A stretch of DNA of 64,000 nucleotides. Origin: Hufsiella arboris. Its GTDB lineage: Bacteria > Bacteroidota > Bacteroidia > Sphingobacteriales > Sphingobacteriaceae. The notes under the pieces are model-generated. The model saw only the letters and a program-made list of their open reading frames with translations, had not been told where the DNA came from and did no database searches. The DNA lies in assembly GCF_009834875.1 (NCBI RefSeq), contig NZ_WVHT01000005.1, positions 248,001 to 312,000 of the forward strand, written 5' to 3'. Every line of letters starts with the position of its first letter. Within the stretch, counting starts at the first letter, position 1. The position numbers were made by a program, and so were the translations under genes. This document shows positions 912 through 4,882 of the stretch, one piece after another.

Positions 912-2756
912 TTATTTTTCGAACTTTTGTAAAAGCTCTTCTAACGTAAAAGTAAGTATAATGGGTTTGCCCTGTAGCGAAATATTTGGCGAATCGCATG
1001 CAAAAAGTTCATCGATTAAAGAGTTTCGCTCCTCCTGGGATAATTGTGTTCCGGCCTTAATTGACGAATTTCTCGCCAGTGTCCGGGCAAGATTATCACG
1101 TTTGTCTAGTTTTAATGCAGACATATTGTTTTTAAAACCTTCCATTAAATGTTCCAATACTTCAGCTTCACTGATCGAGGAACTGATATCGGCAGGAATT
1201 CCTTCAACTACAAGAGTGTTTCGGCCAAATTCCCTTACCTGGAATCCAAGCGCCCTGATGTCGGGCAACAACTCTTTTACCAGTTCGAAATCTGATGGAC
1301 TTAGGGAAACTGTTTGCGGAAAAAGACTTTGCTGACTGGCGCCCTGACGGCTCTCAAGCTGTTGCAAAAAACGTTCATAAAGTATACGTTCGTGTGCAGC
1401 CTGCTGATCGATAAGCATAAATCCCGATTTAATCTGCGATATCAGGAAGCGGTTGTGCAGTTGAAAAATTTGCTTTTCTGCAGGTTTTTGGATGCTCTCA
1501 GAAATGTTTTCTTCGGGCATAGCCATTTGATGCTGTGTATAAGCAGGATTTTCAACTATCTCGTAAAGAGAGCCCCAGTTTTTACTCCTTTCCTTTTGTT
1601 CGAAATTTCTTAAAAAGGGTAGTTCCCGTTCGTTCTTTTCTTCTGTTTTGAAAGGATTGAAATTTGGGTTGAAACTAATTTGCGGTGGTACTATATCTTC
1701 GGGCGACTTCGGGGTTATCATATTGCTGAATCCTGTCTCCTGGTCAAAATCCAAAGAAGGTGTTATATTATACCGGCCTAATGATCGTTTTACGGCCGAG
1801 CGTATAATTGCATAAATCGACTTTTCATCCTGGTACTTAATTTCTGTTTTGGTTGGATGTACGTTAATATCGATTTTCGCCGGATCAATATCGATGAATA
1901 AAACATATAAAGGATAACTGTCATCAGGCAGCAATTCCTGGTATGCCGTTAAAACCGCGTGGTTGAGATAAGGGTCCTTGATAAAGCGGTTGTTAACAAA
2001 AAAAAACTGTTCACCCCTTGTCTTTTTTGCAAACTCAGGTTTTCCGATAAAGCCTTTTAAATTGATTATTGAAGTTTCCTCTTCAACCGGAACAAGTTTT
2101 TGGTTATAAGCATTTCCAAAAAGATGGACAATGCGTTGTTTCAGAGATCCTGGGGTAAGATGAAATAGTTCATTCCCTTCGTGATGGAGGCTGAAAAATA
2201 TACCGGGATTTGCCAGGGAAACACGTTGAAACTCGTCAATAATGTGACGCATCTCCACGGGATTACCCTTTAAAAAGTTACGGCGTGCAGGCGTGTTGTA
2301 AAATAGGTTTTTAACACTGGTGCTTGTTCCGGCTGGTGATGAAACCGGCTCCTGGCTGATTATCTCAGAGCCCTCGATTTTTATACAGGTCCCGAGTTCA
2401 TCGGTATGTCGCCTTGTCCGCAGCTCAACCTGTGCTATCGCCGCAATCGATGCCATCGCTTCGCCACGAAATCCCATTGTGCGAATAGCGAATAAATCAT
2501 CTGCCTTACGTATTTTAGATGTCGCATGGCGTTCAAAGCACATGCGGGTATCTGTTACACTCATTCCGCAGCCATTGTCAATCACCTGAATTAACGCTTT
2601 TCCGGCATCCTTTAATATCAATTGGATTTTATCAGCTCCCGAATCAATCGAATTTTCAATTAATTCTTTAACTGCTGAAGCAGGCCGTTGAACGACCTCG
2701 CCGGCGGCAATTTGATTAGCAACAGAATCGGGTAAGAGCTGGATAATATCTAACAT
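912..2756 (-). CDS. mutL: DNA mismatch repair protein MutL
   Basis: GHKL ATPase that couples MutS mismatch recognition to strand incision and excision. The N-terminal ATPase motifs are clear: ELIENSIDSGA (Asn-containing motif I, about 32-42), DNGCGM (60-65), TMGFRGEA (93-100) and GTSTSVKNLFYNTPARRNF (143-161). A variable, Pro/Glu-rich linker (about 335-425) leads to the C-terminal dimerisation domain. That domain has DQQAAHERILYE (450-461), the place of the metal-binding endonuclease motif DQHA(X)2E(X)4E, with His replaced by Gln. The usual final CPHGRP box reads SPN...GKP here, so nuclease activity is uncertain. I prefer the ATG at 2756 (or the adjacent one at 2759) because family members begin just before DIIQLLPDSVANQIAAGEVV. 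The -7 box ends 8-11 bases upstream. Confidence 0.96.
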   Translation of the reverse strand: MLDIIQLLPDSVANQIAAGEVVQRPASAVKELIENSIDSGADKIQLILKDAGKALIQVIDNGCGMSVTDTRMCFERHATSKIRKADDLFAIRTMGFRGEAMASIAAIAQVELRTRRHTDELGTCIKIEGSEIISQEPVSSPAGTSTSVKNLFYNTPARRNFLKGNPVEMRHIIDEFQRVSLANPGIFFSLHHEGNELFHLTPGSLKQRIVHLFGNAYNQKLVPVEEETSIINLKGFIGKPEFAKKTRGEQFFFVNNRFIKDPYLNHAVLTAYQELLPDDSYPLYVLFIDIDPAKIDINVHPTKTEIKYQDEKSIYAIIRSAVKRSLGRYNITPSLDFDQETGFSNMITPKSPEDIVPPQISFNPNFNPFKTEEKNERELPFLRNFEQKERSKNWGSLYEIVENPAYTQHQMAMPEENISESIQKPAEKQIFQLHNRFLISQIKSGFMLIDQQAAHERILYERFLQQLESRQGASQQSLFPQTVSLSPSDFELVKELLPDIRALGFQVREFGRNTLVVEGIPADISSSISEAEVLEHLMEGFKNNMSALKLDKRDNLARTLARNSSIKAGTQLSQEERNSLIDELFACDSPNISLQGKPIILTFTLEELLQKFEK

Positions 2757-2766
2757 CATAAACAAA

Positions 2767-2927: not shown

Positions 2928-2941
2928 CGGGAACGTTCCCG
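2928..2941. promoter_or_regulatory. 14-bp perfect palindrome, candidate operator
   Basis: CGGGAACGTTCCCG is a perfect dyad in an otherwise AT-rich stretch. It lies 12 bases upstream of the -33 box of the small transcription unit that follows, where an activator or repressor would bind. The regulator is unknown; the size and symmetry would suit a LacI-type or similar dimeric protein. Confidence 0.45.
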
Positions 2942-2953
2942 GGCTCACTTTCA

Positions 2954-2984
2954 TTTGCATAAACGAAATAATGCTATTACCTTG
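2954..2984 (+). promoter_or_regulatory. Promoter of the small transcription unit
   Basis: TTTG at 2954-2957, then 20 bases, then TACCTTG at 2978-2984. This is close to the Bacteroidota promoter TTTG-N19..23-TAnnTTTG, with one T missing in the -7 box. The predicted start of transcription is near 2990, about 15 bases before a small ORF. Confidence 0.5.
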
Positions 2985-3004
2985 AATTAAAATTCACCAC
3001 CAAA

Positions 3005-3073
3005 ATGTATGTTGTGCCTATGATGAAAATGGTACAAAATTTCATGAAAGACGATGCTTCCTGCATCAACTAA
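3005..3073 (+). CDS. Possible 22-aa methionine-rich micropeptide
   Basis: ATG at 3005 and TAA at 3071-3073 give a 22-residue peptide starting MYVVPMMKMVQNFMK and ending in DDASCIN; five of 22 residues are Met and there is one Cys. There is no strong purine-rich ribosome site, as is common in Bacteroidota. Support comes only from position: directly after a promoter and before a terminator. It could equally be a chance ORF inside a small RNA. No known family recognised. Confidence 0.3.
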   Translation: MYVVPMMKMVQNFMKDDASCIN

Positions 3074-3143
3074 ATTGAAAAAGGAGTAACCTCCAAAAAA
3101 ATTATTGTGGCCATGCCACTGATGGGACTATTCAAACTAACCT

Positions 3144-3173
3144 AACTGCCCGGAACAACCGGGCAGTTTTTTT
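3144..3173 (+). terminator. Intrinsic terminator of the small transcription unit
   Basis: A 10-bp stem AACTGCCCGG/CCGGGCAGTT (3144-3153 with 3159-3168), loop AACAA, and seven T in a row at 3167-3173. Textbook rho-independent form on the plus strand. Confidence 0.85.
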
Positions 3174-3244
3174 ATGCAACAATTTTGAAGCTTTTACCTT
3201 ATATAATTCTTATGAATGATATATTTAACGCTTACTGAGACAGC

Positions 3245-4882
3245 ATGAGAACAACCTTAATCTTCGCAGCAAGTCTTTTTTTCTTTATCTCATGTAAACA
3301 AAGGCAAAAGCCCGTTGACATGATTTTTTTAAACGGAACTGTTTATACCGTAGATAGTTCATTTGCAACGACAGAGGCATTCGCTGTGAGCCGGGGCCGG
3401 ATTGTTGCCGTTGGAAGTACCGATGCAATTGAAACTGCTTATTCTTCGAAAAACACAATCGATCTTGAAGGTAAAAGCGTTTATCCGGGATTCATCGATG
3501 GGCATAGCCATTTTTATCGTTATGGGGAAGGTTTGAAATCGGTAGACCTTACAGGCACAAAAAGCTGGGATGAAATTGTTGAGATGGTAAAAATCTTTTC
3601 GGAAGTAAATCCGGACGGTTGGCTGCTGGGCCGGGGCTGGGATCAGAATGACTGGCAAGCAAAAGGTTTTCCTGACAATACAGAGCTAAATAAATTATTC
3701 CCTACGCGGCCGATTCTTCTGTCACGGGTAGACGGTCATGCTGCGATAGCTAACCAGGCCGCGCTCTCTCTCGCGGGCATTACAGCCGGACAAAAAATTG
3801 CTGGCGGTAAAATCGGAACAAAAGATAAAACACTGACAGGGCTTCTTGTTGATAACGCGGTCGACCTGGTATCTGCTAAAATTCCTCCCTTTACCATTAA
3901 GCAAATGAACGATGCGCTGCTTGCAGCACAATCGAATTGCATAAAAGTTGGGTTAACCAGCGTTGTTGACTGCGGCTTGGATTATCCGATGATAAGCGTT
4001 ATTGATGCTCTTCAAAAAAACAACCAGCTGAAAATGCGGGTGTATATGATGCTGTCGGATAACGAGAAAAACGTTAATTATCTGTTTAAAAACGGTGCTT
4101 TTAAAACTTCACGCTTAAATGTCAGATCTTTCAAAGTGTATGCAGACGGTGCATTAGGATCCAGGGGTGCATGTTTATTGAAGCCCTATTCAGATGATCC
4201 CTCAAACAGCGGATTCCTGTTAAGCAGTAAAGAACATTTTCAAGAGATGGCTGAAAAGCTTTATGACAAGGGTTTCCAAATGTGTACACATGCTATCGGA
4301 GATTCGGCCAACAGGCAGATTTTGAATACTTATGCGGCGGTTTTAAAAGGAAAAAATGATCGCCGGTGGAGAATTGAGCACGCGCAGGTAATTGACCCGG
4401 CTGATTTCAAAATATTTGGTGACAACAATATTATTCCTTCTGTTCAACCTACACATGCCACGTCTGATATGTATTGGGCCGGTCAGCGACTAGGCGATAA
4501 ACGTCTTAAATCGGCGTATGCTTACAAAGATTTACTTAAACAAAATGGTTGGGAAGTTCTTGGAACCGATTTTCCGGTTGAAAGTATCAATCCAATTCTA
4601 ACTTTTTATGCTGCGGTGACAAGAAAAGATGCGAAAGGCTATCCGTCTGGCGGTTTTCAAACAAACAATGCTCTGTCGCGGCAGGAAGCGTTAAAGGGAA
4701 TGACAATTTGGGCCGCTAAAGGTAGTTTTGAAGAAAAGGAAAAAGGAAGTATTGAACAGGGGAAATACGCCGATTTCGTAATACTTGATAACGATATAAT
4801 GAAGGCATCCCCACAAAAAATTTTAAAAACCAACGTATTAACAACATATATCAATGGTGAAAAAGTCTACCAGAAAAAATAA
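3245..4882 (+). CDS. Amidohydrolase family 3 lipoprotein (YtcJ-like)
   Basis: A metal-dependent hydrolase of the amidohydrolase superfamily, probably an envelope protein. The N-terminus is a lipoprotein signal (FFFISC, Cys at about 17). The metal-ligand pair is in GFIDGHSHF (about 80-88). Further family motifs are VDGHAAIAN, ADGALGSRGA, the HAIGDSANRQIL His motif and IEHAQVID, with the late Asp in TDFPVES. This order is typical of family 3 (YtcJ) proteins of about 540 residues. The natural substrate is not predictable; relatives act on N-substituted or cyclic amide bonds. The following gene begins 5 bases after its stop, so the two form an operon. No clean promoter was found in the short stretch between the upstream terminator and the ATG. 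Confidence 0.9.
   Translation: MRTTLIFAASLFFFISCKQRQKPVDMIFLNGTVYTVDSSFATTEAFAVSRGRIVAVGSTDAIETAYSSKNTIDLEGKSVYPGFIDGHSHFYRYGEGLKSVDLTGTKSWDEIVEMVKIFSEVNPDGWLLGRGWDQNDWQAKGFPDNTELNKLFPTRPILLSRVDGHAAIANQAALSLAGITAGQKIAGGKIGTKDKTLTGLLVDNAVDLVSAKIPPFTIKQMNDALLAAQSNCIKVGLTSVVDCGLDYPMISVIDALQKNNQLKMRVYMMLSDNEKNVNYLFKNGAFKTSRLNVRSFKVYADGALGSRGACLLKPYSDDPSNSGFLLSSKEHFQEMAEKLYDKGFQMCTHAIGDSANRQILNTYAAVLKGKNDRRWRIEHAQVIDPADFKIFGDNNIIPSVQPTHATSDMYWAGQRLGDKRLKSAYAYKDLLKQNGWEVLGTDFPVESINPILTFYAAVTRKDAKGYPSGGFQTNNALSRQEALKGMTIWAAKGSFEEKEKGSIEQGKYADFVILDNDIMKASPQKILKTNVLTTYINGEKVYQKK

Follow-up and report, generated by a model that had tools for sequence, protein, structure and literature searches.

Most of what is known about RNA sponges comes from Proteobacteria. 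In E. coli, 3'ETS-leuZ, a spacer at the 3' end of a tRNA transcript, acts as a sponge for the small RNA RyhB, as set out in the available portions of the paper (PMC6191717), and in Bacteroides thetaiotaomicron FopS and GibS form families of multicopy small RNAs (available portions of PMC11697453). Here we compare with these systems a predicted small RNA encoded beside mutL in Hufsiella arboris and a multicopy element, the tail, that is complementary to it. As far as the available portions of PMC6191717 describe 3'ETS-leuZ, the likeness lies in a tRNA-transcript trailer that ends in an intrinsic terminator and is complementary to a small RNA; the differences are that here there are many tails, some without a tRNA, and a single dedicated RNA near mutL, that the sequences are other ones, and that the system is known from sequence alone. 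A tRNA 3' spacer followed by a terminator was seen for many tails, the gene being tRNA-like and missed by ARAGORN, and other tails have no tRNA. Like FopS and GibS, as presented in the available portions of PMC11697453, the tails are multicopy and combine a terminator hairpin with a conserved 5' stretch that is single-stranded, and both are found in phage sequence too. The tails differ in having a tRNA-like carrier and an RNA partner complementary to them; the word sponge does not occur in that paper. Homology to FopS was rejected: judged by the R1' seed sequence the tails are not members, the alignment score being not significant (236 of 2000 shuffles were as high), and FopS was not among the Rfam matches of one tail up to E 5 in an Rfam copy that may not include it.

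The window, the whole 64,000-nucleotide stretch of H. arboris DNA that was analysed, carries at 2954-3173 on the forward strand what is predicted to be a stand-alone small-RNA gene: it is intergenic, has its own promoter and intrinsic terminator, and is conserved as a unit. The promoter, TTTG-N20-TACCTTG (2954-2984, with TTTG at 2954-2957 and TACCTTG at 2978-2984), has a layout that we take to be the Bacteroidota type. With a start assumed 6 nt past the promoter element, the predicted RNA would be about 183 nt long (2991-3173). Near its 5' end is TTCACCACCAA (2994-3004), which is shared only with the copy in a genome of the same genus and is missing from other lineages. Toward the 3' end lie GATGGGA (3121-3127), whose complement CCCATC matches the hairpin loop of the tails, and the invariant block TCAAACTAACC (3132-3142), complementary to the tail sequence GGTTAGTTTGA; an intrinsic terminator with a 10-bp stem and a T run (3144-3173) completes the gene. 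The neighbours are the divergent mutL (912-2765, reverse strand; PF01119 and PF08676) and an amidohydrolase gene (3245-4882, forward strand; PF07969), the latter inconstant. The fold of 2985-3175, terminator included, has a z-score of -5.24, and none of 200 dinucleotide shuffles was as good. Within the predicted RNA, CAAACTAACC has a mean unpaired probability of 0.81, versus 0.51 across the entire molecule, and GATGG is mostly paired (0.34 unpaired). An Rfam 15 scan of the window gave no match at or above the gathering threshold. Matches below it, such as RcsR1 and azaaromatic, were rejected as the identity of the RNA: RcsR1 (RF02552) resembles it in the hairpins and terminator at 3097-3173, but the score of 23.7 bits falls short of the gathering score of 60, and the window RNA is no member.

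In the vicinity of mutL, 11 Sphingobacteriaceae-type genomes from five genera (g1, g6, g12, g20 and g41) carry the promoter, the terminator and the 3' block GATGGGA-N4-TCAAACTAACC. A DNA search of 41 genomes found, among the matches listed, two correctly spaced pieces in G001, a genome of the same genus, and alignment of the two copies showed that TTTGCA...TACCTTGAAT, TTCACCACCAAAA, GATGGGACTATTCAAACTAACCT and the terminator are kept; further copies were found in G041, G012 and G056. A covariance model of the 3' block scored 11 of 251 family genomes at 47.8-72 bits and the next best at 31.3 bits, among the matches listed; 10 of the 11 had supplied sequences for the model, and the eleventh (G100) was added by the model search. 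Exact TCAAACTAACC followed by a T run was present upstream of mutL in 8 of 69 genomes, as read from 69 of the 70 stretches taken at 74 mutL places (L081, where the gene start had been missed, was left out). Fixed-pattern searches of 301 and 400 genomes gave true copies in the window's own genome (G000), G001 and G041, and their remaining matches were rejected as overlapping long frames. No match to the window RNA was found in plasmids. In 10 of the 11 genomes the block reads away from mutL at a distance of up to about 0.6 kb, and in G012 the distance is about 2.6 kb. A regular expression for the promoter layout fits 8 of the 10 copies tested, with a spacer of 20 in each; the promoters of G081 and G063 are, by eye, one letter off. 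TCAAACTAACC is invariant and GATGG present in all 10 aligned copies and also in G100, with GATGGGA altered to GATGGA or GATGGT in G020, G070 and G063. The listed copies all have a terminator hairpin and T run, with stem sequences that differ from the window's, and copies from different lineages hardly align outside the 3' block. The RNAs of G041 and G012 (L032, L038) share a middle GGGGCAAAGTAGTG...ACGGGGAT...CCCCGAAAAAAA that the window copy is without. A conserved 5' stretch, ACAAACTCTTAATCAACAACTAAT, occurs with slight variation near the RNA start in the copies of genus g20 and G063 only (L048, L056, L063, L064, L066, L083 and L154).

The initial annotation had read this locus as a complete mini transcription unit, independent of both neighbours, that might be an unannotated regulatory RNA, a micropeptide gene or a peptide-controlled attenuator of the amidohydrolase, and had proposed a check for conservation in related genomes. 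All the features it named are present, and the check bears out the promoter, the 3' block and the terminator, but not the palindrome CGGGAACGTTCCCG (2928-2941), the 22-codon ATG frame (3005-3073), the 10-codon frame (3113-3145) or the GGAG/CTCC hairpin (3083-3094), all four of which are absent from the aligned same-genus copy. The palindrome lies outside the conserved unit and was rejected as a kept operator. Like the 22-codon frame, it is ordinary for this window, which holds 8 perfect 14-bp palindromes (2 with at least 8 G+C) and, on both strands, 262 ATG frames of 20-31 codons. The reading as a predicted regulatory RNA is supported by the unit, promoter to terminator, being kept in 11 genomes, and independence from the neighbours is borne out by its persistence while the downstream gene differs. 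As named by eye in the relatives, that gene is an amidohydrolase in G000, G041 and G012 and a serine-hydrolase-like frame in G056, G091 and G100; in G001 the next kb holds no co-oriented frame above 100 codons except one antisense to a MetRS-like frame.

A micropeptide gene or a peptide-controlled attenuator has the existence of the 22- and 10-codon ATG frames in its favour, and the relatives make either highly improbable. Across all 11 copies, frames of 10 codons or more yield, by eye, no common peptide, the invariant nucleotides fall in different frames, and both ORFs were rejected as genes. Attenuation of the amidohydrolase is unsupported because the RNA persists where no amidohydrolase adjoins it, and in the window a complete terminator stands before that gene. 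A conserved short ORF ahead of one regulated gene was not found among the copies; since the ORFs and hairpin are unconserved and the downstream gene changes, both the peptide and the attenuator readings fail. The RNA beside mutL would instead probably catch or control repeated small RNAs.

These repeated RNAs came to light through secondary matches of the 3'-block model in G000, G063 and G070, which have a hairpin loop GATGGGC followed by CAAACTAACCAATTATAAACC, a 21-mer of which the window's own genome has three exact copies and a fourth with one mismatch. On the opposite strand these matches are intrinsic terminators with GGTTTATAATTGGTTAGTTTG ahead of them, so the mutL-side block is the antisense of the tails in the same order: CAAACUAACC faces GGUUAGUUUG, and GAUGGG faces the tail loop. 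A tail consists of GGUUUAUAAUUGGUUAG, a suffix (UUUG in the RNA's five genera) and a covarying terminator hairpin whose loop is usually CCCAU; the window's own genome has three. Stem covariation in 18 equal-length tails was 0.558; shuffles gave 0.165, none of the 500 reaching the observed value, and 99.3% of stem cells were paired. The tails in the covariation, conserved-part, complementarity and permutation comparisons are a sample, and the search pattern for those in the first two contained GCCCATC, which accounts for part of the loop's constancy; among tails chosen by the core sequence only, the loops GCCCACC (L272), TCCCATA (L275), GCTCATC and CTCCCC also appear.

With up to 3 mismatches, the tail core was found in at least 77 of 111 family genomes and at least 18 of 25 genera. 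The suffix TTTG follows 61 of 66 tails among the matches listed (13 genomes, five genera; longer core, up to 3 mismatches). The pattern GGTTAGTTTGN{5,18}CCCATC matched in 15 of 111 family genomes, with 57 of its 59 places, the RNA's own reverse strand excluded, inside the RNA's five genera; the other two are a true tail (G083) and a place inside a frame (G108), and a reversed-pattern control gave 4 matches in the 111 genomes. Tails are present in G006 and G046, G022 has one TTTG tail, with another loop, and G083 has a TTTG tail as well, with the RNA not found in these four genomes by the 3'-block model, among the matches listed. Within the window, complement to the tail core gave 2 weak matches versus 0.34 expected. 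A search for a counterpart RNA in other genera with GATGGGAN{1,16}YDWACTAACC found 12 places in 111 genomes, 8 of them known and 4 inside long frames, and was set aside. The window's own genome holds a second candidate antisense RNA, CAAACTAACCAATTACAAACC (L168, G000:C1:323104-323124), which is complementary to the tail core plus suffix at 20 of 21 positions and has on one side TTTC-N19-TATCTTTA, which resembles a promoter, and on the other a hairpin resembling a terminator.

In many cases a tail forms the trailer of a tRNA-Leu-like gene whose variable arm is very long; other tails come after fragments of this gene or without any tRNA, and in the g15 stretches that were read they are short genes (e.g., L256, with TTTG-N19-TATCTTTG). 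The tRNA-like gene matched RF00005 at 34.9 bits, above threshold in a small search, and was unreported in a larger cmscan; its core is present in 65 of 111 family genomes. The variable arm holds a small hairpin, often with a GNRA-like loop (L172:1364-1471 and similar loci), the anticodon loop is apparently GUC, and in some genomes the gene occurs in tandem copies. A match of gene plus tail to named phages (7 Sinorhizobium phage records) was dismissed, as it covers 23% of the query and is a tRNA piece. At two loci (L192, L193) the tail follows only the 3' piece of the gene, with RadC-like frames nearby by eye, and these loci are perhaps an integration site. Such loci, together with the exact 17-nt tail core in 39 viral contigs, would suit a DNA-level site, such as an attachment site or relic, with no RNA function; we consider this very unlikely, given that the RNA gene keeps a promoter and terminator and the tail hairpins covary. 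In the viral contigs (L283-L321) the core often stands ahead of hairpins of other sequence, and 28 of the 39 have a T5 run in the tail stretch. Matches of viral contigs to the block pattern (21 stretches) were taken as chance, one having a T5 run within 50 nt and none being terminator-like.

Between an RNA and its own tails, the longest contiguous complement measures 11-12 nt in G000 and G001, 13 nt in G056, G081, G091 and G100, 13 and 16 nt (two tails) in G041, 16 nt in G012, 16-18 nt in G020 and G070, and 17 nt in G063. Shuffled tails gave means of 6.9-7.9 nt and maxima of 10-14 nt, and tails of other genera reach 12-14 nt. Most tails were fetched with a pattern demanding GGTTAGTTTG, a segment predicted to be 0.53 unpaired, and part of their lead over the shuffles follows from this selection. 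For G000 and G001, shuffles reach 12-13 nt, and the 11-12 nt match in the window's own genome alone would not convince. Only complement length beyond 10 nt and lineage matching are independent evidence. When six lineages were permuted, own pairing ranked first among the 720 arrangements (mean 14.84 versus a permutation mean of 13.39), a result that shared descent can inflate. Full-length duplex energies, which ignore internal structure and lie within shuffles for G001, were discarded as evidence. An accessible, conserved complement with lineage matching, as expected of a sponge, was seen for CAAACTAACC, with GATGG mostly paired and the match short in G000 and G001; the predicted pairing of GATGG inside the RNA speaks against free pairing with the tail loop. 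The complement extends 4-6 nt into the tail stem in G020, G070 and G063, so pairing and hairpin would compete there. Gene layout, conservation, complementarity and lineage matching are supported by the sequence.

The complementarity might also be an echo of common origin, for example from an old inverted tail copy, with the RNA a conserved small RNA aimed at mRNAs or a protein. In its favour, an A run, GATGGG and CAAACTAACC follow one another in the same order in the block and in the reversed tail, and the pairing is short in G000 and G001. Against it, the block contains no mirror of AGGTTTATAAT, the second conserved part of the tail, and the lineage-specific extensions fit their own tails best; we rate this origin as quite unlikely.

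On balance, and with modest confidence, we favour a clade-specific antisense or sponge RNA directed against the multicopy tail family. We infer transcription, pairing in the cell, the direction of control and an effect on the tails' regulatory targets. The tail RNAs would come both from independent short genes and from the trailer of the tRNA-Leu-like gene, and the 3' block GAUGGG-linker-UCAAACUAACC, directly before the terminator, would be the antisense module that pairs with them. It would mask the last part of the single-stranded tail stretch, to which some genomes add 4-6 nt of the 5' arm of the tail terminator stem. The mutL-side RNA, as sponge or anti-sRNA, would thereby titrate or destabilise the tail RNAs, which, judged from sequence, is most likely its job. 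Control could also run the other way, with the mutL-side RNA as the regulator and the tails as a sponge that holds it in check. The E. coli leuZ 3' spacer and RyhB, as described in the available portions of PMC6191717, offer a precedent; many tails are likewise trailers of a tRNA-Leu-like gene, and several tail copies face one RNA. By analogy this arrangement is conceivable, yet we regard it as unlikely: the RNA has no known target, and the tails (at least 77 of 111 genomes) are far more widespread than the RNA (11 of 251, among the matches listed) and so should have another job. It is this wider spread that leads us to favour an anti-sRNA over tails acting as the sponge.

Neither RNA was described in the literature searched (titles, abstract starts and passages, with most subscription journals outside its scope), and the tail 17-mer was absent from the main texts searched. 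The mutL-side RNA is a sponge candidate in Bacteroidota, and its partner family is widespread, multicopy and partly carried on an odd tRNA-like gene. Since the block and the tails differ among genera, swapping their sequences offers a test of the pairing, and with the tail family comes a small-RNA regulon yet to be studied. A bolder and doubtful extension is that co-evolution has led a single-copy host RNA to silence spreading multicopy small RNAs that ride on a tRNA-like gene and on integrating elements, the sequences tracking each other genus by genus; if true, this would amount to RNA-level control of mobile small RNAs.
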